A DNA stretch of 64,000 nt from Pseudomonas azotoformans. GTDB taxonomy: Bacteria > Pseudomonadota > Gammaproteobacteria > Pseudomonadales > Pseudomonadaceae. The position numbers and the translations under genes were made by a program. The stretch lies in contig NZ_CP014546.1 in assembly GCF_001579805.1 (NCBI RefSeq), positions 6,448,001 to 6,512,000 of the forward strand, given 5' to 3'. This document shows, piece by piece, positions 890 to 16,164 of the stretch (position 1 is its first letter; every line of letters starts with the position of its first letter). The notes under the pieces are model-generated. The model was not told the DNA's origin. It ran no database searches and worked only from the letters and a program-made list of their open reading frames with translations.

Positions 890-1426
890 TCAGGCATTGC
901 CCTGACCGCCCAGTTCAAACCGATACTCCCCGAGGGAGCCTGACATACCGCCCCAATGAGGACCCGCGTCAGCCGTAGTAACCATCGCAGTGACCTGCTG
1001 CTGAAGTTCGAAGACCGCCATATCCAGTAGCCGGCGCAGGTCTTCGGCACTCTGTGCGGCCACATTCAATTGCAGCGTGTAGGCACCTGTGAGGGGCGGC
1101 GCTGCTGGATCGGCAGGCGGTGCGGGCTCGTTGGCCACCTCCCCCGTCCGGATCATTTCCGCCTGGCTGAGGATTTCCGCGTGTTCGTCGTCCATAAGGT
1201 CCAGCACCCGTGACAATTCCAGGGTCTGTTCAGGATGGGATTGAATGCGGTCCTTGATCTCCAGGCGCCGCATCTGCCACTCCCGCAGCTTCTCGCGCGT
1301 GAGGTCGTCGACTTTTTCCACGTGTGTTGTCTCCGGATGCCAGGCACTGGAGTATGCCGCCATGGACTGCTCGATGGCAGATGGCTTGAATGCATTTTTT
1401 GAATTGAATTTAAGGAGGTGTTGCAA
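890..1426 (-). CDS. Hypothetical protein, acidic helical, partner of the P-loop NTPase
   Basis: Up to 178 aa. The longest frame begins at a TTG (1426); an ATG at 1363 would give 157 aa starting MAAYSSAWHPE and is a reasonable alternative. The first half is rich in charged residues and predicted helical (about residues 38-95). A Pro/Ala linker follows (PAPPADPAAPP), then a compact C-terminal half. I do not recognise a family. It lies immediately upstream of the P-loop NTPase and in the same direction. Its 5' end is only 7 bp from the truncated ffs repeat, so any promoter must lie inside that repeat or in the island. Confidence 0.6.
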   Translation of the reverse strand: MQHLLKFNSKNAFKPSAIEQSMAAYSSAWHPETTHVEKVDDLTREKLREWQMRRLEIKDRIQSHPEQTLELSRVLDLMDDEHAEILSQAEMIRTGEVANEPAPPADPAAPPLTGAYTLQLNVAAQSAEDLRRLLDMAVFELQQQVTAMVTTADAGPHWGGMSGSLGEYRFELGGQGNA

Positions 1427-1432
1427 GGAAGA

Positions 1433-1530
1433 GCGTTATGGAGGCAACCCCACCAGCCACACCCCGGCACACAATGTTCCCGCTGTGGCTGCTGCCTTCC
1501 GGCTCTGACCAGGTTCACGGGTAATCGTTG
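1433..1530 (-). repeat. Left attachment repeat: 5'-truncated copy of ffs
   Basis: These 98 bp are identical, in direct orientation, to 16039-16136. The minus strand carries the conserved SRP RNA tip (GAGCCGGAAGGCAGCAGCC). The copy stops before the RNA 5' strand that closes the terminal stem, and there is no ffs promoter next to it, so it should not make functional 4.5S RNA. I read it as the distal attachment site left when the island inserted into ffs. The integrase gene begins about 135 bp inside this end. Confidence 0.9.
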
Positions 1531-1666
1531 AAAGCCATATGGGGCAAGGGTAACAGGCTTTTGAGGTTGTCTCTATTCTTCCGTGCCAACACCCGGTGCG
1601 GACAGTCAGAAATCGGGGTGTAGCCAGCACTGTCACACACAGCTGCCACACATCGGTGTCACACAT

Positions 1667-2959
1667 ATGGCCTACATAATCCGTCGCGGGGCTTTCTACT
1701 ATTTGAATCTGCGACTACCTAAGCACCTCTTCCTAAGGTGTCACACCTTACGTTTGAGCCTGAACATCCGGGACCGGCAAAGCGCGTTGCTTCTTGCTGC
1801 ATTTCTGGCCCAGCGGGTGCATAAGCACTTATCAGAACACCCCCTGGATGGCTTTCAGACGCTGCGTAGGCTGTGTTCGGAGTGGCGTGATTCAGCACCC
1901 ATGCCGACCATCCAAAACGCATCACGGAAGGTTCCAGCCATCAGCGTGAAGTGCAATGTGGACGGACCTACACTGACCACCCTGTCCAAGCTGTATATCG
2001 AGGAAGGAAAACGTGGTGGCACGTGGCGTGAGGTCAGCACACACGAAGTTGAACGTGCATTACGAGATTTGTTCGAACTGATGGGCGATATGCCTGTATT
2101 TGAGTTCGATGTGCATCAGGCCCGACTGTTGAAGGATCGTCTGAGCCGTTGCCCCCAATACTTCGCTCTGCTACCCCAGTTTAAGGGCAAGACGTTAACT
2201 CAAGTGATTGACTCTGGTGGCAAGTACAAAAGCATCACCGCCGTGACCGTGAACAACCGTCTACGTAAACTCTCGGCATTCATGAATTGGTGCAAATCCA
2301 ATGGTTACATTACCGACAACCCCTTGTTGGGACTCAAGATGATGACGGGGTCGGCGAAAGATGCACGACTGTCGTTTGATCAACGCGACCTGAGCATCCT
2401 TCTCGACTTAAATGCACTCAAGGAAGAATCACGTAAGCATCCATGGAGGTTTTGGCTCCCATTGCTTGGTAGGTTCACCGGCGCCCGACTGGAAGAACTT
2501 TGCCAGTTGCACGTTACCGACTTCGTCACGCTGCAAGGATTCGAGTGCATCCGGATTGACGATGGTCACCACGCCCAAAACCTGAAGAACAGTAGCAGTC
2601 GCCGAACTCTCCCAATCCATCCAACGTTGATTCAGCTTGGACTGCTTGATCACCTGAATAATCAGCGTATTCAGGGCTCTGATCGTTTATTCCCAGAACT
2701 GGAGCCTGTTCGCGGAAAGCTAGGCCACGCGCCGTCGAAGTGGTTTAGTCGATATAGGATTAAAATGGGCGTCACCGACCCAAAGAAAACCTTTCACAGC
2801 TTCCGCCACACAATGATCGATGATCTTAGGGATGCCGGAGTACAAGACTCCTTGATCAAGCGCATTGCTGGGCATGAAGACAGCAGTATTACCTTTCGCG
2901 TTTATGGAAGCAGGATACCGATAAAAGCAATGCTAAAAGCCCTGACCTACATACGGTGA
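1667..2959 (+). CDS. Tyrosine recombinase / integrase
   Basis: Site-specific recombinase that probably integrates and excises this island at ffs. From the ATG at 1667 it is 430 aa. The N-terminus (MAYIIRRGAFYYLNLRLP) resembles the N-terminal arm of phage-type integrases with a DUF6538-like domain. The catalytic set is visible: Arg274 in TGARLEEL, His377-x-x-Arg380 in HSFRH, His403 in GHED, and nucleophile Tyr413 in FRVYGSR. The frame stays open upstream to a GTG at 1583, but I see no ribosome binding site there and the family N-terminus fits the ATG. An inverted repeat at 3020-3050 follows the gene. Confidence 0.93.
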   Translation: MAYIIRRGAFYYLNLRLPKHLFLRCHTLRLSLNIRDRQSALLLAAFLAQRVHKHLSEHPLDGFQTLRRLCSEWRDSAPMPTIQNASRKVPAISVKCNVDGPTLTTLSKLYIEEGKRGGTWREVSTHEVERALRDLFELMGDMPVFEFDVHQARLLKDRLSRCPQYFALLPQFKGKTLTQVIDSGGKYKSITAVTVNNRLRKLSAFMNWCKSNGYITDNPLLGLKMMTGSAKDARLSFDQRDLSILLDLNALKEESRKHPWRFWLPLLGRFTGARLEELCQLHVTDFVTLQGFECIRIDDGHHAQNLKNSSSRRTLPIHPTLIQLGLLDHLNNQRIQGSDRLFPELEPVRGKLGHAPSKWFSRYRIKMGVTDPKKTFHSFRHTMIDDLRDAGVQDSLIKRIAGHEDSSITFRVYGSRIPIKAMLKALTYIR

Positions 2960-3363: not shown

Positions 3364-4884
3364 ATGAACAGCAAAATCATTCACGTATCTATTGCAGCAC
3401 CTGGCACAGGTAAAACCATGGCGGCAATTTCTGCTATTCCTGGAATGCTTGCTCATGGAAAAAAAATTCTCTACGTAGCACCAACACTTGCACTGGCAGA
3501 CCAAGTTCTTAAAGACATCCGTAGAATTTGTAGTTTTCTTGAACCTATTATTATTGATTCACGCTGTGAAGGATCAGCAGAGGCAAACCTGAACAAAATG
3601 CTGAACCCAAAAGAAATTTCGCATTTAATTATCTGCCAGCATATCACTTTCCAAAAGTGTTCAACAAAACACTTGCGCGACTGGACGATCATCATTGATG
3701 AGCTGCCTATGCCCATCAGTCTTCGTCATATGACCTTCGACCAAATACAACTCAAGCGCTTGGACCTCATTGAGATCATTGACAACCAAATCAAAATCAA
3801 ACAAAACAAATACGAAGCCATCAAAAATGAAGTAGCCACGTTCAAAAAATCTAACAACCAGGGATACAATCAAATTGACACCACATTATCCCCTGCCGCG
3901 CAAGATATTTACAGCGCGATTTTGAACAAGCTTCCCGTATTCGCTGATACATATTATTCAGGCCGTGAAAAAACCGTGATTCGAATCATTGAAGAATATG
4001 GATTTTTCGAACGATTCCACATGGCACAAGAAGTACATCTTTTGTCAGCCACGCTCAAGGGCTCACTGTTCGATTGGTTCGCGAGAGCCAATGGGTTTAC
4101 GTATGCACACTCACACTTCGCTCAAAGCACCGTCGACAACGGAAAAGATGTAACTATTTTTCCAATGCTGTCCGACAAGAACCACTGCTCACGAGGAGTA
4201 TTGGATTCAGTGGACAGTGCTTCCAATGACGGATGCACAGTCCTGCAATCGATGGCAAATTTTATTAGCCAACAATTGACTAACCGGGAATCCTGCCTGA
4301 TGTTTGCGTACAAATGGGGCAAAAATGTCCGTAGTGGTAAATTCATTCAGTGCAAAATTGATAGCCGTGGACTCAATAATTTTACAGATACACATTGCGC
4401 ATTCACAGCATTCCATGGAAACCCTAATCCATTGGCATACAAATCGCTTGAATACATTGCAAAAAAATACAACAGACCAACAGATGCACTGCAAAAAGCA
4501 TGGAAATTCACATACAAGTTGGAAATGACTTTGCAGAATGTCTTTCGGACGTCGCTGCGAAGCAAAACAATCGACAAGCCGGTCAAACTGTACGTCCAAG
4601 ATAATGAAGCCGCCGAATTTTTGAAAAACACGTACCTTCCAAATGCAAAAATTGAAAACAGTATGGCTAGAACCTACAAGGAGAAGAAAAAGCCTGGGCC
4701 AGCACCACACCCGGAACGCGAACGGGCGATTATTTTGCTCAAAAACGGTATGAAGCAGGCAGATGTTGCACGGGAAACCATGCTTGATAAGATGACCATC
4801 TGCAAATACGCAAAACTCATTCATCGGATCAAAGCAGAAGAAAACAGGGCAAACTCCACCCATACCCTTGAACAGTGGTTGTAA
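3364..4884 (+). CDS. DEAD/DEAH-like helicase with C-terminal HTH
   Basis: 506 aa. Superfamily 2 helicase signatures are present in order: Walker A APGTGKT (12-18), a Walker B variant IIIDELP (109-115), motif III SAT (228-230), and a motif VI-like NVFRTSLRS near residue 400. The tail, about residues 450-490, has a resolvase-type helix-turn-helix (GMKQADVARETMLDKMTI) after a basic linker. ATPase activity on nucleic acid is well supported; the rest is inference. A helicase joined to a DNA-binding domain, standing alone beside long A/T-rich non-coding DNA in an integrative element, suggests replication or excision of the island rather than host metabolism. Codon use is much more A/T-rich than in the flanking chromosome. 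Confidence 0.8.
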   Translation: MNSKIIHVSIAAPGTGKTMAAISAIPGMLAHGKKILYVAPTLALADQVLKDIRRICSFLEPIIIDSRCEGSAEANLNKMLNPKEISHLIICQHITFQKCSTKHLRDWTIIIDELPMPISLRHMTFDQIQLKRLDLIEIIDNQIKIKQNKYEAIKNEVATFKKSNNQGYNQIDTTLSPAAQDIYSAILNKLPVFADTYYSGREKTVIRIIEEYGFFERFHMAQEVHLLSATLKGSLFDWFARANGFTYAHSHFAQSTVDNGKDVTIFPMLSDKNHCSRGVLDSVDSASNDGCTVLQSMANFISQQLTNRESCLMFAYKWGKNVRSGKFIQCKIDSRGLNNFTDTHCAFTAFHGNPNPLAYKSLEYIAKKYNRPTDALQKAWKFTYKLEMTLQNVFRTSLRSKTIDKPVKLYVQDNEAAEFLKNTYLPNAKIENSMARTYKEKKKPGPAPHPERERAIILLKNGMKQADVARETMLDKMTICKYAKLIHRIKAEENRANSTHTLEQWL

Positions 4885-7024: not shown

Positions 7025-7040
7025 TCACAGTATACTGTGA
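7025..7040. promoter_or_regulatory. 16-bp perfect palindrome, probable XRE operator
   Basis: TCACAGTATACTGTGA is a perfect 16-bp palindrome between two divergent genes: the leftward membrane-protein set (start 6989) and the XRE regulator (start 7097). This is the usual place and form for the operator of a small homodimeric HTH repressor that controls itself and its neighbour. It does not match the LexA pattern CTG-N10-CAG. Confidence 0.6.
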
Positions 7041-7096
7041 GGACGTATCCACAGCCATCACCGACAGTGATCCGTCTTTGAGACCGGACTGTAAAA

Positions 7097-7339
7097 GTGG
7101 ATATTGGCGTAGCTTTCGGAAAAGTCCTTCGCCAGAAGCGTAAGGACGCCGGACTGACCCAGGAACAGCTTGCCCATGAGGCTGACGTGCAGCGCAATTA
7201 TGTCAGCTTGATCGAACGAGGAATTCACCATCCCACAATTGCAGTTGTGTTCAAGCTTGCACATGCATTGCGGTGCCCTCCATCCGTTCTCATATCGGAT
7301 TTAGAGAAAGCAGTTAGCGACACCCCTGAGTCAAATTGA
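7097..7339 (+). CDS. XRE-family transcriptional regulator
   Basis: 80 aa from a GTG start. The whole protein is one cro/cI-type HTH: LRQKRKDAGLTQEQLAHEAD (about residues 11-30), then VQRNYVSLIERGIHHPTI with the recognition helix, and FKLAHALRCPPSVLI. Length and sequence fit the compact regulators of mobile elements and the C-proteins of restriction systems. It diverges from the small membrane protein genes with a perfect palindrome between. Autoregulation and control of the leftward genes are inferred. Confidence 0.85.
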   Translation: MDIGVAFGKVLRQKRKDAGLTQEQLAHEADVQRNYVSLIERGIHHPTIAVVFKLAHALRCPPSVLISDLEKAVSDTPESN

Positions 7340-7433
7340 TTGCTGCTTTGCCCCTACAATGGGGACTAGCCAGCATTCGGGTCGTTAACTCATCGAGTTA
7401 TGATTCATTGAAACCCTAACGTAGCCTTCTTGA

Positions 7434-8408
7434 TCAGACGTTCACCGCAGATTCGTACGATCTGACAATCTCAAGGCATCGCTGCCTAAGCTCGTCACGG
7501 TTCAAGGCATAGTGAGCCTGGCGGTGTGCATCAGCAGACAACGCAATGACATTTTCAACGGTGTCAGGACCACCCTCACAGAGTGGGATTATGTGATGCG
7601 TTTCTAGATACGTGCCGCCGTTTGCCATCCGAAACCCCGGCGCCATTGTCAATTCGCAAATACCTTTCGACCTCGCTAACACGATTGCTCGGACATTCGG
7701 ATCACGATATCGCTGGACGCCTTGGTAGGTGTAAGCAGAAGGTCGCGCTTCGGCGTGAAACTGGTCCACAATTTTCCCAGCATCAACAGATTCGTATTTT
7801 TCGGGTATGTGCGGCATCCCATCGATAGGGTCCATTACAGGCGCTAAAGTCTGGCGACTGTTATCCCCTCGCACGAGGCTGAAAGCCCCTGTATCGCCGT
7901 TAAAACCTTCCACGTGCCAGAATTCATCATCTAAATAACGGCCGATGGCACGATCAGTTCCAGGGTCGATTTCATCCGACTCACCTACGGGGCCAGACAC
8001 GATTACCACTCGGACAGGAATTGCATTTAGATGTGCAAGCTGAACAGTCGAGTGAAAATGCCCTGCACGACTAATGCTCGGGTCCTTGATTGTTCGATTC
8101 CTGTTTTTGGGCGCTTTCTCAAGTTGCCGAATCAAATCTTCCGCATATACCTTCAGATTTCTTGAGAAGAAAATTCTCCCATGATCATCAACTTGCAGCT
8201 CTTCAAACCAAACGCACAATAGCAGTATGCTTCCGTTGCTGCTCCGGAATGACCATTCGTAACAATACCCTCCATTAGATTGTGGCAAGGCTACAGGGCG
8301 ACCATCACTCCTGAAGCTCCAAGCAGTGACGTCGATGCCCGCTTGTTGCACACAATCGATAATCAACAATTTTCTCGTCGGTCTTAGGGCTTCCAATTTC
8401 ATGTCCAT
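7434..8408 (-). CDS. HNH endonuclease
   Basis: 324 aa from the ATG at 8408; the frame extends five codons to a TTG. The last ~80 residues form an HNH module: RAIVLARSKGICEL, then YLETHHIIPLCEGGPDTVENVIALSADAHRQAHY. The metal-binding His pair, the Asn in ENVIAL and the final His are present. The CxxC zinc knuckles usual for this subgroup are missing: ICELTMAP and SADAHRQ stand where CxxC and CxxCH are expected. The first ~240 residues match no domain I know and might read a modification or bind DNA. DNA cleavage is likely. A restriction or defence role is plausible from the neighbourhood but not shown. Confidence 0.8.
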   Translation of the reverse strand: MDMKLEALRPTRKLLIIDCVQQAGIDVTAWSFRSDGRPVALPQSNGGYCYEWSFRSSNGSILLLCVWFEELQVDDHGRIFFSRNLKVYAEDLIRQLEKAPKNRNRTIKDPSISRAGHFHSTVQLAHLNAIPVRVVIVSGPVGESDEIDPGTDRAIGRYLDDEFWHVEGFNGDTGAFSLVRGDNSRQTLAPVMDPIDGMPHIPEKYESVDAGKIVDQFHAEARPSAYTYQGVQRYRDPNVRAIVLARSKGICELTMAPGFRMANGGTYLETHHIIPLCEGGPDTVENVIALSADAHRQAHYALNRDELRQRCLEIVRSYESAVNV

Positions 8409-8515
8409 ACGCCCTATATCCAATTCAACAAATTCAACGGCTCATTAGGTTCCGGGGCGGCTTAGCATGGTGAATTTTCAAGAAGCTGGCGTACCAAATT
8501 CATAACAATGGGAAT

Positions 8516-8797
8516 TTGGCAGCACCACTACCTACAGCAGGTATTAATTCACTACTTGGAAGGTTTGTGTACTGGAAGCGTTGGGTGCTTAGGCTTGGTT
8601 TCGGGGTTTACGTGACGCCTTCGGTCGTCCTTGCCGTCTTCTCGCGCTGGTTTGGGGCCGGGCTTGATAACAGTAAACATGTGCTGTCCTTTTCGTTTGT
8701 GGTACTGGTTTTTCAATCGTGGCTGTTAACCATCGCATTGAGCATTCGGATGAAAACTCCCGCCACACCTGACATAAATAGCGGCAATCTGCCATAA
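8516..8797 (+). CDS. Possible small membrane protein (93 aa)
   Basis: The frame begins at a TTG after a weak GGGA. It has a basic stretch (YWKRWVLRL) and two hydrophobic segments, LGFGVYVTPSVVLAVF and VLSFSFVVLVFQSWLLTIAL. No family is recognised. The competing minus-strand frame is lower-quality. A short two-helix membrane protein fits the set of similar proteins in this island, but the weak start leaves it uncertain. Confidence 0.35.
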   Translation: MAAPLPTAGINSLLGRFVYWKRWVLRLGFGVYVTPSVVLAVFSRWFGAGLDNSKHVLSFSFVVLVFQSWLLTIALSIRMKTPATPDINSGNLP

Positions 8798-9096
8798 GTC
8801 AAGGGCGTGATGGCGTGAGGCAAACCTGTTCGGAATTTTTGCCGAACAGCTAACCCGCTCCGCTGCAATCCTTCCAGACCTGGCCGCGTTCACTACTGAG
8901 TGCAGTGTGAGAATCAACCCCTGGGAGAAGATATTCTCGATTCTAAGACACCGCCTTTGCTGTTTGCCCAACTGCATGGCAAGGAGTTGGTAGATGTAGC
9001 CGGAGACCTAATGTCTGAACGTGGCCCACGTGAAAACGTTGGGCAAGATCACATTGTCGATGCCATTGCTTACGAAGTGGCACCACTAAGCTACGG
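8798..9096. other. No confident gene; inverted repeat
   Basis: About 300 bp with no gene I can support. An 8-bp inverted repeat with an 8-nt spacer, CTGTTCGG (8826-8833) and CCGAACAG (8842-8849), has its T-run inside the loop, so it is more like a binding site or weak attenuator than a classical terminator. A short rightward frame at 8900-9154 resembles nothing known and overlaps the end of the next leftward gene. Confidence 0.4.
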
Positions 9097-9474
9097 TCAT
9101 TCCCGCCGTATAGGCTCCCGTAACGGTGTTGGCGAAGCTGAAGGGCTTTGCTGACTCTCTTGATGATCCAATGCTAGACGTGGCTCCTGTGACGCCTGGC
9201 GTACACCCAGCGGTGATAGTTGATCCACTTCTGCGGGAGCGATAGGCAGAGGGCGAAAGCCCCGGTAGACCCATTCCAAGGACTGCAAAATTCCATAGGC
9301 CGCTAGCCCCCCAATCGCACCACCAAGAAAGATACCAATGCCCACCTGATTATTTCCGGCAAGCGGTACTTGCGGCGCTGTTTGAATCAGCTTGAAGGAC
9401 ACAAACAGTCCAGTGGCAATGGCTGCCATCCACTTCAGCAACTCCCACAGCCTTCGCCATCCCTCTCCATGCAT
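9097..9474 (-). CDS. Small membrane protein, paralogue of the next gene (125 aa)
   Basis: The start ATG at 9474 has a good ribosome site (GGGAGAG) 6 nt upstream. The protein begins with GWRRLWELLKW, followed by two membrane segments (about 15-31 and 42-62), the short motif YRGFRP, then a hydrophilic Pro/Ser-rich tail. The frame W-RRLW...RGFRP is shared with the 136-aa protein encoded 21 bp upstream, so the two look like diverged duplicates in one operon. Function unknown. Confidence 0.65.
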   Translation of the reverse strand: MHGEGWRRLWELLKWMAAIATGLFVSFKLIQTAPQVPLAGNNQVGIGIFLGGAIGGLAAYGILQSLEWVYRGFRPLPIAPAEVDQLSPLGVRQASQEPRLALDHQESQQSPSASPTPLREPIRRE

Positions 9475-9495
9475 ACGAATCTCTCCCGTGATGGG

Positions 9496-9906
9496 CTATA
9501 CAGCGTTGGGTCGGAAGCCACGGATCACCCACCCAATGAGCCATCCCATTACGTAGAGGCTGACGCATATGCCCAGCCAGATCCCAACCCCAGTAGCGAC
9601 ATGCTTGAACTGTTTACCCGGCAAACCCAATAAGTCACGTTGGTAGCGCTGGTCTGTCTCTTTGCTGCGCTCATCCATCTGTGCCACGGTTCTGTCGGAT
9701 GTATCGTAAATACTCCGAGGCTCGATACCAGCCTCCCTTTTCTGAATGTGCTCGATTTCCATACTCTGCATAACCTTGTCGGCCTTATACCAAGTCGTTA
9801 TCTGGCTCTCGGTTTCCATGGTGTCAACGATAAGAACAACAGCTACCGCTCCAAGAAGACAGCTCACCAGTACCCACAACCTTTGCCACCCGTTCAGTCG
9901 TCCCAT
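9496..9906 (-). CDS. Small membrane protein with periplasmic loop (136 aa)
   Basis: I choose the ATG at 9906 because AAGGAGAG lies 8 nt upstream; the frame itself opens further, to 9957. After GRLNGWQRLWVLV comes a first membrane segment (about 10-28), then a long charged loop of some 70 residues, then a second segment (about 103-127) ending VIRGFRP. Both the N-terminal WQRLW and the C-terminal RGFRP occur in the downstream 125-aa protein. No family recognised. Confidence 0.65.
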   Translation of the reverse strand: MGRLNGWQRLWVLVSCLLGAVAVVLIVDTMETESQITTWYKADKVMQSMEIEHIQKREAGIEPRSIYDTSDRTVAQMDERSKETDQRYQRDLLGLPGKQFKHVATGVGIWLGICVSLYVMGWLIGWVIRGFRPNAV

Positions 9907-10061
9907 TCGCAAGCTCTCCTTGATCGTGAGGGAATTATCCATGCCTGACACGTTCATTCGTCATCACGGCATTGCCCTCAGCCTAACCTCCCTGCCATGC
10001 TGGTGGCGAACTGATTCCACAGTCCGTGGCTCAGTCGCTAACCCTTGAAAGGATGCTGGGA

Positions 10062-10397
10062 ATGATTCATGTCATGTTGTCGCTGGACCTCAAGAACGCA
10101 ACAAAGCAGCAGCGCGATGCTTTTGATGGTGCTTTGAAAGACGAAGCATTTGTTAAGTTGACTGGAGTAGACACAGTATGGGTATTCGCTTTTCCAAACG
10201 AGCCTACTGAGAGTGCAATTGTGGAGGCATCTGGTGTGATTCAGCGCTTCCTAAAGGAGGTTGTAGAAGAACTTAAAATAGAGAAGATTACATATGTTCT
10301 TCAGATAGGTAACAGTGCCCCAGTTGGTGCAGAAATCGAAGATATTTATGGCACGCACAAGGTTAGAGACTTCGACCCAACTGTAATCGCTGACTGA
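10062..10397 (+). CDS. Hypothetical protein (111 aa)
   Basis: I use the ATG at 10062 (MIHVMLSLDLKNATKQQR); GTG 10026 or ATG 10071 are alternatives, and no start has a strong ribosome site. The product looks like a compact alpha/beta protein: an N-terminal strand and helix (QRDAFDGALKDEAF), a second strand (VDTVWVFAFP), a long amphipathic helix (EASGVIQRFLKEVVEEL) and a last strand (ITYVLQIG). It is acidic and has no signal peptide. No family recognised; it stands alone. Confidence 0.55.
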   Translation: MIHVMLSLDLKNATKQQRDAFDGALKDEAFVKLTGVDTVWVFAFPNEPTESAIVEASGVIQRFLKEVVEELKIEKITYVLQIGNSAPVGAEIEDIYGTHKVRDFDPTVIAD

Positions 10398-10717
10398 TTC
10401 AGTGCATCCATGGCCGAGACTCAAAACCCCGGCCATATCTCAAAATATCCTGGGCTAAACCCACCCGATACCCTTGCCCGGTGAGGCTATCCCTTCCAGG
10501 CATAAGTCTTGTGGCACGTCTGTACCCCAGTGTTTCCGTGGGGCATGTCGAAAACGGACAAGCTCGCCTCTGTGAGAACTCAGCGTCAAACTAGTTTCCA
10601 GCTTTCAGAACGCACGAAGCGCGTCGAAATGGCAAAAATCAGCAAGATGGCAACACCCAACCCCATCCAATCCTTAGCTGGTCTACGATCCTTGCACCAC
10701 AACCGAGGATGCCTCTC
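10398..10717. other. Mostly non-coding; weak 61-codon frame
   Basis: The only rightward candidate starts with the ATG at 10545 (MSKTDKLASVRTQRQ) and runs to 10730, slightly overlapping the next gene. Its basic first half could be a small DNA-binding protein, but the second half looks like random translation. The opposite strand also has a frame (10586-10843) without family resemblance. I call neither. Confidence 0.35.
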
Positions 10718-10924
10718 ATGGATGACCTGAACGAAGTGACCGCCGATGCCTTGGAGTTGCTTATGTTGAACCAGAACGCTCTGGGCGCTGCCATCGAAGA
10801 GTTGAGCAACTGGGTACGGGATCAGGGCGGGATAAAGACTCACGCCAACATCGTCGGCGCCCTGGAGACGCTAGACACGAGCAATGAAGGCATCGCCAGC
10901 ATGATCAGGGTGCTACGTAGATAG
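10718..10924 (+). CDS. Small hypothetical protein (68 aa)
   Basis: Starts at MDDLNEVTADALELLML; GAGG lies 11 nt upstream of this ATG, and another ATG at 10709 is possible. It is an all-helical acidic protein with a heptad-like pattern (ELLMLNQNALGAAIEELSNWV, trimmed, then ALETLDTSNEGIASMIRVLRR). No family with a known function is recognised. Its stop codon touches the 30-bp inverted repeat upstream of the serine recombinase gene. Confidence 0.5.
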   Translation: MDDLNEVTADALELLMLNQNALGAAIEELSNWVRDQGGIKTHANIVGALETLDTSNEGIASMIRVLRR

Positions 10925-11040
10925 CATCATCAAACGACCGTTTGGTGATGCTAGAAATTGATGGTCGTAAACGTATCAACAAAATAGCCTTGCACATATA
11001 ACGACACCAACATACAGTGATACTACGTTTAATGATGCTT
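10923..11040. promoter_or_regulatory. Repeated half-sites upstream of serine recombinase (candidate res-like site)
   Basis: Positions 10923-10952 form a near-perfect inverted repeat (AGCATCATCAAACG / CGTTTGGTGATGCT, 14 positions per arm, one wobble, 2-bp centre). A third copy of the arm, CGTTTAATGATGCTT, lies at 11026-11040, just before the recombinase start at 11052. Arms arranged as a palindrome plus a separated copy directly upstream of a resolvase/invertase gene resemble a recombination or regulatory site. The recombinase bound is inferred. Confidence 0.5.
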
Positions 11041-11051
11041 GAGCACACCCC

Positions 11052-11621
11052 ATGTCCCGCACATTTCTATACTGCCGTGTTTCAACGTCCACTCAGTTCA
11101 ATGCAAACCAAGTGCAAGAAGTGAAAGCAGCTGGATTCGACGTACAGGCAAGCCGGGTAATAGAAGAAGTCATATCGGGTAGCATTGCTGCCAGTGAACG
11201 CCAAGGGTTTCAAAAGCTATTGGATCGGATGGAAACAGGTGACGTACTGATCGTGACCAAACTGGACCGTTTGGGCCGCAACGCAATGGATGTGCGTCAG
11301 ACCGTTGAATATCTAGCTGGAATTGGAATTCGCGTACATTGCCTAGCATTAGGCGGCGTAGACCTGACCAGCCCGGCTGGCAAGATGACAATGCAGGTTT
11401 TGAGCGCCGTAGCTGAGTTTGAACGTGACCTGCTGATAGAACGTACGCAGCAAGGGTTGAAGCGGGCCAAGGCTGAAGGCAAGAAGCTGGGCAGACCCGA
11501 GGCAAAAGGCACGACAGCATCAGTGCAACACCTCAAGACAAAAAATATGACTCAGGCACAGGCAGCAGCTGAACTTGGTATTGGCATTGCAACGGTAAAG
11601 CGTCACTGGAACAAAAGCTGA
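11052..11621 (+). CDS. Serine recombinase (resolvase/invertase family)
   Basis: 189 aa, the usual size for small serine recombinases. The catalytic region begins [11 protein letters not shown] with nucleophile Ser11 and its preceding Arg. The active-site pattern [12 protein letters not shown] follows at about 74-85, then the long helix with [28 protein letters not shown]. The C-terminal HTH is [22 protein letters not shown]. It could resolve multimers of the circular island, invert a segment, or act as a regulator of its own site. Three copies of a 14-15 bp arm lie directly upstream. Confidence 0.92.
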
Positions 11622-11745
11622 TCAAAAGAGAATCACCAACAGTTCGCGAGACGCTTCGCCCTTAAGCCTCAATTTTGCTTGAGAATCTTACCGAAATGCA
11701 GTTTTATTCTCCAATGAGAAAATCATCAATACTAAGGGATAGCAT

Positions 11746-14121
11746 ATGGCAAACATTGACTTGATCGAACTTGCACTGGCTGCCCCCATCGACTGGGAAA
11801 AGTTCGAAACAATTATATGCGACATTCTCGGTGATGACGACCTTCCAAAGATAAGAAAACTTGGAGGTCGCGGCGATCATGGAATGGATGCGACAGAAGA
11901 ATCATATTACTCTTTAACGGGATCGATCGATACTGCAATACAAATCACATCGCAAAAAGCTCAAAAGATCAAGGTTAGCGATACATTAAAAAAACTTGCA
12001 TTTTACAACATCAAAGCCAAGCAACTTATAATGGTATTCAGAGACACGTGCGCTGCAAGTACGTTAAGAGACATACGAGATCAAGGCATAGCAGCAGGCA
12101 TTCACATCGATGTACGGGATCGCAGCTACATAGTTCGAAGACTAGGCTCAAAAGACTCCAAGGTTTTCGCCAGACACTTCAGTGGCGATATACAAAAACA
12201 AGTAAAATTATTACTAGAAAAACCAGATCCTTTAAACCAAGCTTCGGATGAACTGAAACGCTCGGTATTCGCATCGATGGCAACATACTCACTTACGCCT
12301 CACTCCCGACTCGTACACGGGAAACTCTTTGAGCGGACTGTGCTAGCAATAATTGCGGCTACAGATAAGCCGATTACAAAGAATGAAATTCTCGAAAAAG
12401 CAGCTCTATTACTTCCTGAAAACAATATCATCCAAGACACCCAAATCACATCGGCTATAAACAACCTTAAGACATCAAACGACATTGTGGGGTCAGACTC
12501 AGGATACAGCGCATCAAAGGAAGCACTGATTAGAGTAGGCACTTCAATACTTTCTGTACAGTCTGCTCATGAAGATATCCAACAATGGGTTCGATCATCA
12601 GTTGAAACTCTTAGGAAGCTCAACGATGCAGAAATAGGTTACATCGAAAGAAATGTACGCGAAGCAATAGCTCTGATTATAAGGCTGATAGCACCCAGGG
12701 CTATTGATGCAACTATCCCATTAGATAAAAACACCGAAAAAGATTTGCACCGCATTCTGTCAAAGAATATCTCACCTGATCTAGGAAAGAAAGCCCTAGC
12801 AGCCATTGCTGGATACGTCTCAGATGAAGATAGACGAACAAAATTAGCACCGTTCGTACGCGCGTACACCACGCTCGCGATAAGAAATCTTGATCCAATC
12901 GGAAAGCAATGGCAAGCATCCATTTTAAGCAGATCCATAATAGCTTTAGACACAGACGCCGTTCTCAAATTAATTGTCACCGACCTGCCAGAGCATAACG
13001 CAATCAAAGCCGCCTTAGAATCTTTAGCCAAGGAAGGCGTACAAATAATAATCCCTGATAACGTTTTAAAAGAGGCTCACGGCCATATAGAAAGAGCGCA
13101 AACGACATTCAATAAGTTTCGAGAAAACCTACTACAACTACCTCTGTCGATTGTCGACTCCAAGGTATGGCATGCTGTTGTTCGTGGTTATGCTTATGCT
13201 CAAACAGAAACCGAGAAACCATCTTGGAGCGAATATTACAATAGGTACTACGACCAAGATGACTCCTTAAATTATCTAATTCGAATTCTGAAAAAACGCG
13301 TTCCAGCAAAGATTGAAGACCTACATGAACTTCCTGATTCTGACTTAGAACCTTTAAGGGAACTTACCGATATAATCCTTACGAAAAAAGAACAAAGTCG
13401 ATTGAAGGCTGACTTTCGTGGAAATGAACTAATGCATGAGCGAGTAGAACGAGACCTACGCATGCTATTTTCGATGGCGCACAAACAATCGTCCTCTTTC
13501 TATACGGCAAAGGGTTATCTAGTGACTGAGGATCGCGCCTTATTTTACGCCGAAGATTCAGCTCCTTGGAGTGGTCGTCCGCATGTGGCTATGATGACGA
13601 GATCCCTTCCAGTCCTAACAGACTTTGTATGTGACGCCCGTTTAGATGACACAGATATTGTAAGGCTCGTGTTTGAACCTCTAGTGGCAGCGACAGCAGA
13701 ACTGTTAGGTGACGAAATTGAGACGCTAACCAAAGCCGGAGCAGACCTCCATAAGGAAACGTTGGATCAGATTGAATGGAAGCTAGAGAAAGGCCTGAGA
13801 AAAAAGATACATGAATTCAATTGCGCTGACGAGTTAGCTGACCAGACTATCAGTGGCGAGCTTAGTTTAGAACTTATAGAGGCAGTTAGCAGAGCTGATA
13901 TACAACTGATTCCCTCTATTGCAGAAGTCGCAGAAAATTACAGGGCTCTAGTTCAAACCTCCGCCGAAGAAAAAGCTGAACTAGACCGCATCAAGAAATC
14001 GATTGAAGCGGCACTATTTGAGGTGGCAGGACAAAGTTCGAAAGGAAGAGCGCGGGCTAACAAAATGCTCGCTTCGCTGGGGTTATCTACCCTACCAGAC
14101 CCTGAAGAACAAAAACCCTAG
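11746..14121 (+). CDS. Large multidomain nuclease: PD-(D/E)xK-like + winged helix + PIN-like
   Basis: 791 aa, with AAGGGA before the ATG. Residues 1-130 read as a PD-(D/E)xK-like fold: Glu21 in an early helix, GGRGDHGMD with Asp48, and IQITSQK (66-71), where Q-x-T-S-x-K stands for the usual (E/Q)xK strand. Residues about 192-262 look like a winged helix (PITKNEILEKAA...). Residues about 395-630 resemble a PIN domain: LDTDAVLKLIV (Asp402/404), VLKEA (Glu443), VERDLRML (Asp570) and LVTEDRALF (Asp596). The rest is helical with a coiled-coil tail. The gene stands alone as cargo. Two nuclease folds in one protein suggest a defence or toxin-like effector; this is inference and I know no named system with this architecture. 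Confidence 0.7.
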   Translation: MANIDLIELALAAPIDWEKFETIICDILGDDDLPKIRKLGGRGDHGMDATEESYYSLTGSIDTAIQITSQKAQKIKVSDTLKKLAFYNIKAKQLIMVFRDTCAASTLRDIRDQGIAAGIHIDVRDRSYIVRRLGSKDSKVFARHFSGDIQKQVKLLLEKPDPLNQASDELKRSVFASMATYSLTPHSRLVHGKLFERTVLAIIAATDKPITKNEILEKAALLLPENNIIQDTQITSAINNLKTSNDIVGSDSGYSASKEALIRVGTSILSVQSAHEDIQQWVRSSVETLRKLNDAEIGYIERNVREAIALIIRLIAPRAIDATIPLDKNTEKDLHRILSKNISPDLGKKALAAIAGYVSDEDRRTKLAPFVRAYTTLAIRNLDPIGKQWQASILSRSIIALDTDAVLKLIVTDLPEHNAIKAALESLAKEGVQIIIPDNVLKEAHGHIERAQTTFNKFRENLLQLPLSIVDSKVWHAVVRGYAYAQTETEKPSWSEYYNRYYDQDDSLNYLIRILKKRVPAKIEDLHELPDSDLEPLRELTDIILTKKEQSRLKADFRGNELMHERVERDLRMLFSMAHKQSSSFYTAKGYLVTEDRALFYAEDSAPWSGRPHVAMMTRSLPVLTDFVCDARLDDTDIVRLVFEPLVAATAELLGDEIETLTKAGADLHKETLDQIEWKLEKGLRKKIHEFNCADELADQTISGELSLELIEAVSRADIQLIPSIAEVAENYRALVQTSAEEKAELDRIKKSIEAALFEVAGQSSKGRARANKMLASLGLSTLPDPEEQKP

Positions 14122-15969: not shown

Positions 15970-16038
15970 TTAGGTGTACCAAAACGCTGTCACACTTCGA
16001 ATTTTCTGACTGAGAAATCCTTGAGATTTCAAGGACTT

Positions 16039-16136
16039 GCGTTATGGAGGCAACCCCACCAGCCACACCCCGGCACACAATGTTCCCGCTGTGGCTGCTG
16101 CCTTCCGGCTCTGACCAGGTTCACGGGTAATCGTTG
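16039..16136 (-). repeat. Right attachment repeat (within ffs)
   Basis: Identical in direct orientation to 1433-1530. It covers the 3' and tip portions of the 4.5S RNA. Sequence identity ends at 16136 on the right (the RNA's 5' side) and at 16039 on the left. The insertion therefore leaves a complete ffs here and a partial copy at the far end of the island. Confidence 0.9.
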
Positions 16137-16164
16137 CGGGGGGACCGATGGGGTCACCATAACG
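16040..16164 (-). ncRNA. ffs: 4.5S (signal recognition particle) RNA
   Basis: The RNA part of SRP, which binds Ffh and targets membrane proteins. The minus strand has the conserved domain IV tip (ACCTGGTCAGAGCCGGAAGG, then CAGCAGCC). The outer stem closes perfectly: CGTTATGG at 16164-16157 pairs with CCATAACG at 16047-16040, and ACCCCA on the 5' side faces TGGGGT on the 3' side. The ends given are those of this stem; the mature RNA may be slightly shorter. The 3' part lies inside the island repeat, so the island has preserved the gene. Confidence 0.93.

Follow-up and report, generated by a model that had tools for sequence, protein, structure and literature searches.

A putative PD-(D/E)xK, winged-helix and PIN protein on an integrative island of Pseudomonas azotoformans is probably an unnamed bacterial immune protein

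What is the role of P0001, a 791 amino acid (aa) protein that appears to join two nuclease domains in one chain and is encoded on an island of Pseudomonas azotoformans (assembly GCF_001579805.1, contig NZ_CP014546.1, positions 6,448,001 to 6,512,000; this whole 64,000-nucleotide stretch is called the window)? An earlier note, made from the letters of the DNA, had proposed a single-gene defence protein or toxin with PD-(D/E)xK-like, winged-helix and PIN-like domains. Our analysis indicates that P0001 is probably an unnamed bacterial immune protein, because its relatives in phages, in a phage satellite and on plasmids occupy positions often taken by anti-virus genes. The reading that we favour, with a modest lean in its direction from sequence and modelling, is that of an immune protein of mobile elements that is encoded by one gene, has two nucleases and inhibits itself. 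The open reading frame (ORF) is real and lies exactly where the earlier note had placed it (Table 1); a good ribosome-binding site, AAGGGA at 11734-11739, ends 6 nt upstream of the ATG, and the 791 codons compare with 235 for the longest open frame over 200 shuffles of the island (+ strand). The gene has a GC content of 43% vs 61% for the chromosomal bases 20001-60000 of the window, and the host genome holds a single copy of it.

The AlphaFold2 model of P0001 (predicted local distance difference test, pLDDT, 82) contains both predicted nuclease folds with the winged helix between them, as the earlier note had anticipated. Residues 1-147 are modelled with a restriction-endonuclease core fold, residues 2-147 matching the Avs4 nuclease, EcoT38I and MspJI in structure. 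Residues 398-620 are modelled with a PIN fold and, folded alone, resemble PIN proteins such as protein-only RNase P and VapC, with HARP, VapC and PAE2754 in the top rows and exosome chains and SMG6 also among the matches. By title, 40 of the 50 match rows are PIN-type; the other 10 are seven structural-genomics proteins with uninformative titles, two RohQ and one chain of a CbCas9 complex. The helical middle between the winged helix and the PIN domain is a possible sensor or hinge. These assignments come from VIA-align and the PIN-only model, not from Foldseek with the whole model, which against the PDB placed helicases at the top with poor TM-scores and none at E<=0.001. The PIN-only model likewise gave none at E<=0.001 with Foldseek, and a viral structure library yielded single-domain proteins as its best matches (phage restriction endonucleases, MotA), again with none at E<=0.001.

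Our protein search identified at least 27 proteins of the same family (family 1), P0001 included, and a profile search added one fragment (P0029). The family sizes given here are lower bounds, because the protein searches scored only about 8000 candidates (7990-7996, those sharing most words). Identity to P0001 ranges from 28 to 88%, and the family alignment (A1) has 27 rows, P0001 and 26 relatives, with the identical P0002 and the fragment P0029 left out. Pfam searches at E<=0.01 recognized Mrr_cat in 17 of 27 family-1 proteins, PIN_3 in four, PIN_12 in four and PIN in two. In this alignment 23 of the 222 Asp, Glu, Lys, Gln and His residues of P0001 are at least 96% conserved (rows with a letter), and seven of the eight residues singled out by the earlier note fall among these 23 (hypergeometric P 3.8e-7, which shows good residue picking, not catalysis). 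These are Gln66 and all six of the acidic residues (Glu21, Asp48, Asp402, Glu443, Asp570 and Asp596), so the expected conservation of the acids was found. The eighth, Lys71, had to be given up as the catalytic lysine, being kept in only 12 of 26 proteins (46%) vs the invariant Lys76. A QxT/S stands where the canonical QxK is expected, and Lys76, ten residues past Gln66, is probably the displaced catalytic lysine, judging by the alignment. The same alignment places all four acidic residues of a predicted PIN active site in family 1. One member of the family, P0025, has His at the position of Asp570, a hint that the PIN site is decaying in family 1 as well.

Family 1 shares ancestry, on the profile alignments, with two further families. 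Our genus search, over 298 genomes, matched the window's own genome and one other; in that other (G242) a 752-aa protein was matched at its N-terminus only. Starting from this protein, family 2 comprises at least 109 protein-search hits, and its alignment (A2) has 43 rows, made up of P0030 plus 42 hits chosen from the 109 for spread. A profile-profile comparison of A1 with A2 (probability 99.8, E 2.2e-28, 576 columns) covers P0001 residues 1-591 and therefore takes in all three domains up to just before Asp596, while the tail (621-791) falls outside the region aligned by hhalign. Family 3 (P0140, 735 aa) comes from plasmids of Escherichia, Klebsiella and Citrobacter, and its comparison with A1 (probability 96.8, E 2.2e-10, 503 columns) covers residues 13-537. 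Across a set of 21 proteins (nine of family 1, 11 of family 2, and P0140), the invariant columns include Glu21, Asp44, Asp48, Gln66, Lys76 and Glu443. Counted over 110 family-2 proteins (109 hits and P0030), of which 109 have a letter at these positions, the DNase-type residues are kept as Glu in 109, Asp in 108, Gln in 109 and Lys in 109. By these alignments each of the three families retains the DNase-type site, and because it is so constant we rank it as the main putative effector.

The predicted PIN site, read in the same way, is intact in family 1 and also, judged by motif, in family 3, but family 2 has lost its first Asp. The position of Asp402 is Gly in 108 of 110 family-2 proteins; an Asp two residues past it is retained in 108/110, the counterpart of Glu443 is Glu in 108/110, that of Asp570 is Asp in 93/107, and the acid of the TxD motif is Glu (TxE) in 86/107 and Gln in 15. 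P0140 has a DEDD set with TxD that can be picked by motif; the TxD/TxE motif was used because in the MAFFT alignment A4 Asp596 is shifted by one column in families 2 and 3. An active second nuclease is therefore not a superfamily-wide property, and cutting of both DNA and RNA, which the earlier note proposed and which for P0001 would follow only if both modelled sites are catalytic, may be confined to families 1 and 3, because the family-2 PIN site has lost its first Asp. This pattern also raises the most serious alternative, namely that only the PD-(D/E)xK domain is an effector and that a degenerate, non-catalytic PIN domain binds RNA or a phage product and thereby controls the DNase. The invariance of the DNase-type site, the Gly and the Glu or Gln of family 2 and the His of P0025 would all fit such a regulator; all four acids are nevertheless present in P0001 and kept through most or all of family 1 (Table 1), and P0140 has its DEDD set by motif, which is not expected of a dead domain. 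We therefore hold this alternative to be possible, though clearly less probable than a dual nuclease.

To place P0001 among known systems, we compared its domain order with Pfam, NCBIfam, PADLOC-DB 2.0.0, the sequences of solved structures and open-licence papers (main texts outside subscription), and found no named system with the order restriction endonuclease (REase), winged helix and PIN, in agreement with the earlier note; absence of this order in print is weak evidence. In PADLOC-DB 2.0.0 the best match of P0001 is LmuA (E 0.013, residues 11-51 only), with no significant match over the protein; P0030, P0140, P0120 and P0139 have no match at E<=1, and for P0098 (1.2e-4) and P0047 (1.9e-3) the match is confined to the N-terminal part of Aga REase-TIR. 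Among solved-structure sequences, profile A1 found only two coiled-coil proteins and one myosin fusion, profile A2 found no match, and a profile of the N-terminal domain found only one beta-lactamase (E 0.14). The N-terminal nuclease of Avs4 (8dgf_B) resembles residues 2-147 of P0001, but the Avs4 chain has 1534 residues and carries a STAND NTPase and a repeat sensor, whereas the much shorter P0001 has a PIN domain instead and shows no Pfam match to an NTPase family at E<=1. DS-3 of DefensePredictor is described as an antiphage system of one protein that has a PIN RNase and lacks an antitoxin (PMC13092281); by that description its PIN domain is divided over the two termini, whereas the PIN domain of P0001 is contiguous and P0001 adds an N-terminal PD-(D/E)xK domain. 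The same paper reports 13 systems with PD-(D/E)XK domains (PMC13092281), one of which could be a relative of P0001. Mrr, HEPN and PIN proteins of conflict systems have also been described, without this domain order in the accounts consulted (PMC3710099, PMC10853773). VapC toxins and HARP minimal RNase P are small PIN proteins, unlike P0001, and VapC pairs with a VapB antitoxin, while no antitoxin gene was recognized beside the P0001 gene, where short ORFs were mostly not profiled. Single-gene defence proteins usually pair one effector with one sensor, and our comparison suggests that P0001 belongs with single-gene nuclease defence proteins, in an unnamed architecture.

The first two domains of P0001 invite comparison with FcyTI and Psp4BI, PD-(D/E)XK-wH (winged-helix) fusions described as type IV enzymes reading N6-methyladenine in GATC (PMC11037411). 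Both have a PD-(D/E)xK domain followed by a winged helix, as in P0001; compared by description and not by sequence, they differ from it in that the abstract names no PIN domain (PMC11037411). P0001 might accordingly be a type IV (modification-dependent) restriction enzyme whose winged helix reads a modified base and whose PD-(D/E)xK domain cuts, and the fold matches to MspJI and the shared order of domains speak for this. However, this would leave a large PIN domain without explanation, and the winged helix is the least conserved of six segments (mean majority share 0.471), almost level with the tail (0.476). In addition, relatives reside on plasmids of Escherichia, Klebsiella and Citrobacter, hosts that carry Dam methylation, and a reader of N6-methyladenine in GATC would attack its own host. 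On balance, we consider a type IV enzyme rather unlikely.

The positions of the relatives support a defence role. A family-2 relative in a P4-like element with a primase (L029; relative at 8276-10498) lies between a psu-like gene (7025-7837, 6.5e-20) and an integrase (10542-11738); this placement holds for the L029 relative and not for the window gene, and the L029 gene has no match in E. coli genomes. The psu-int slot of P4-like satellites is described as a reservoir of antiviral systems in a paper whose main text lacks the words PIN and Mrr (PMC9122126). Two further relatives lie in lambdoid prophages, as judged from their genes. In L028 the relative is flanked by a P-like helicase loader and by an HNH gene that belongs to a common phage family, with Kiwa (KwaB 5e-144, KwaA 1.6e-82) 3.6 kb downstream; L030 has, in roughly the same place, a cytosine methyltransferase-like gene and two genes that are DUF262-like and HEPN-like by eye only. 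The Kiwa genes of L028 (14693-16085, -) and the methyltransferase-led set of L030 (14540-17397) perhaps mark a second variable slot in similar prophage layouts. On three plasmids (L007, L008 and L046) the relative adjoins a TrlF ATPase with one protein accession common to all three, which in L008 matches PADLOC Ppl (6.2e-35, best stretch 724-863 of 873), and in L006 it adjoins filamentous-phage genes (morphogenesis protein I 3.5e-115, integrase 1.2e-71).

Counting the window, there are seven distinct settings, five on or beside mobile elements and three in or beside recognized defence loci; two of the four settings from whole genomes (window, L006, L004 and L034) are mobile. The defence association for which the earlier note would have homologues surveyed holds for the psu-int slot, the Kiwa-bearing prophage and the plasmids with a Ppl-like gene, on which we base the putative defence role; beside L004 and L034 no defence neighbour was recognized by eye. 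In L034 (8658-10868, -; genome G338, another family of the phylum), a gene placed in family 3 by eye stands alone in what by eye is a surface-sugar biosynthesis cluster.

Occurrence on integrative, plasmid and phage elements would equally suit a non-antiviral maintenance, stability or element-competition factor that helps an island, prophage or plasmid to persist, and a serine recombinase lies just upstream of the P0001 gene. The other of the nearest same-strand genes upstream is a 71-aa ORF without Pfam match. The fact that no partner antitoxin was recognized, within the limit given above for short ORFs, and the location of one relative in a published defence slot and of others near Kiwa and Ppl-like genes argue against such a factor, which we regard as unlikely.

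Our distribution analysis covered 298 genomes in the genus and 398 in the phylum, and in both sets the window's genome was the only one with a full-length family-1 member; a pattern scan of genome contigs added one further locus. Viral contigs, phages and plasmids gave no family-1 match under the settings applied; phages gave none for family 2, and neither phages nor viral contigs gave any for P0140. The plasmid relative gene is found in five of 5426 E. coli genomes, every copy on a plasmid. One phylum hit (G298) was ruled out as a relative, because its match spans 55 residues and lies in a small PIN protein that stands alone. The family-2 profile matches 18 of the 398 phylum genomes, one of them the window's own and G242 alone at full length; the other 16 matches are short and N-terminal, span 67 to 133 positions of the profile and fall within frames of 601-1096 aa. 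A further search matched three of the 398, namely the window's own genome, the relative in G338 and a short N-terminal stretch in G625. The protein at L012 1135-3369(+), cut by the locus end, and those of 15 other genomes have only a short N-terminal nuclease-like stretch in common with family 2, and the nuclease module has therefore probably been swapped among architectures. A housekeeping RNA- or DNA-processing enzyme, which the PIN fold matches to protein-only RNase P, exosome chains and SMG6 might suggest, is highly improbable given this patchy distribution, with a single further family-1 locus, and the low GC content of the gene.

The favoured dual-nuclease immune protein could work as follows, although catalysis, substrates, self-inhibition, trigger and defence role are all points that we infer. 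At rest, the protein's own winged helix and helical middle would keep the nucleases inactive; self-inhibition is proposed because no antitoxin gene was recognized next to P0001. A trigger from an invading phage or plasmid, either a DNA state or a phage protein, would be sensed by the same two segments that restrain the nucleases. The N-terminal domain would then cut DNA and, in families 1 and 3, the PIN domain would cut RNA, tRNA or rRNA being the usual targets of PIN toxins, so that the invader would be cleared or the infected cell stopped. More tentatively, the three families may form a superfamily of one-chain immune proteins with a DNase and an RNase wired to one sensor, in which a single trigger would destroy DNA and stop translation together. 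The RNase of the phage branch would now be regulatory or sensing, and the families would range from dual killers to a DNase gated by a sensor; we think this broader scheme possible but doubtful. A chain that joins DNA-cutting and RNA-cutting domains in three families, with occurrences in a P4-satellite hotspot, in prophages, on plasmids and on an ffs island, would represent an immune architecture both new and unnamed, and the natural series of complete and degenerate PIN sites makes the question of why there are two nucleases directly testable, site by site.

Several observations weigh against this interpretation. P0001 itself scores under the Pfam cut-offs (Mrr_cat 12.5 bits vs 21, PIN_12 18.2 vs 32), Pfam at E<=0.05 recognizes Mrr_cat in only 6 and PIN_12 in only 1 of 43 family-2 proteins, and Foldseek E-values for the P0001 models are never <= 0.001. 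The lysine of the canonical QxK is Thr or Ser here, with Lys76 a presumed substitute, and the first PIN Asp is Gly in nearly all of family 2. The domain order in families 2 and 3 is taken from profile alignment and motifs, and the family-3 alignment stops inside the PIN domain. Finally, the relatives in L004, a metagenome-assembled genome, and L034 are single genes beside which reading by eye recognized no defence neighbour, and the mobile setting is partly made by the search, because the viral and plasmid relatives came from viral and plasmid collections.

The earlier note was right that the gene lies on an integrative island. This island spans 14.6 kb and is bounded by a 110-bp direct repeat (copies 96% identical), which Rfam identifies as the bacterial signal recognition particle (SRP) RNA gene (4.5S, ffs). 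An unoccupied site exists, because a query made of the joined flanks runs contiguously in G017 (query 2-535 of 700, 92% identity) and G004 (query 53-700, 76% identity). Integration into ffs duplicates most of the SRP RNA gene, a partial second copy staying at the left end. P0001 is not, however, the lone cargo gene that had been supposed, because the island holds further cargo including HNH and Mrr-like genes (Table 1), along with a TonB-like protein.

Table 1. Features of the P0001 gene, its predicted domains and active-site residues, and the surrounding island (positions in the window).
Feature	Position	Strand	Evidence
Gene P0001, REase-like / winged-helix / PIN protein	11746..14121	+	ORF call, ATG to stop, 791 aa
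PD-(D/E)xK (Mrr/Avs4-like) nuclease domain, residues 1-147	11746..12186	+	AlphaFold2 model
Winged helix, residues 175-281	12268..12588	+	Structural match to MotA winged helix
Helical middle, residues 282-397	12589..12936	+	AlphaFold2 model; no assigned family
PIN domain, residues 398-620	12937..13605	+	Folded alone, pLDDT 88
Helical / coiled-coil tail, residues 621-791	13606..14118	+	AlphaFold2 model
Glu21, predicted catalytic	11806..11808	+	26/26 family 1; 21/21 across families
Asp48, predicted catalytic	11887..11889	+	26/26 family 1; 21/21 across families
Gln66, (D/E/Q) of core motif	11941..11943	+	26/26 family 1; 21/21 across families
Lys76, invariant lysine	11971..11973	+	26/26 family 1; 21/21 across families
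Asp402, first putative PIN acid	12949..12951	+	27/27 family 1; Asp in P0140 (family 3)
Glu443, second putative PIN acid	13072..13074	+	27/27 family 1; 21/21 across families
Asp570, third putative PIN acid	13453..13455	+	24/25 family 1 (His in P0025)
Asp596, fourth putative PIN acid, in TxD	13531..13533	+	25/25 family 1; TxD motif in P0140
Left repeat copy, island end	1421..1530		SRP RNA remnant at 1448-1540(-), Rfam 51.2 bits
Island tyrosine recombinase	1583..2959	+	Phage_integrase 3.1e-12; start 53 bp from left repeat
DEAD-box helicase-like protein	3364..4884	+	DEAD 1.5e-10
HNH protein, type IV-like	7434..8423	-	HNH 5.7e-5; PADLOC mREase_IV 6.3e-18, HNH part only
Serine recombinase just upstream of P0001 gene	11052..11621	+	Resolvase 1.3e-36
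Second small Mrr-like protein, 222 aa	15034..15702	-	Mrr_cat 22.1 bits vs cut-off 21
Right repeat copy, island end	16027..16136		Full SRP RNA gene 16054-16150(-), Rfam 75.4 bits

Among the other island genes, the HNH protein matches type IV restriction and IscB models chiefly in its C-terminal HNH part, and the small Mrr-like protein is a second PD-(D/E)xK-like gene, barely above the Pfam cut-off. The DEAD-box helicase-like protein has a C-terminus that is helix-turn-helix-like by eye and is possibly an island replication or transfer gene. Reading by eye of the ffs neighbourhoods of G007, G024, G023 and G020 recognized no defence genes. In G024, a transposase-like gene (L042, 3490-4440, +) is flanked by two partial ffs matches, and ffs may therefore be a recurrent insertion site.
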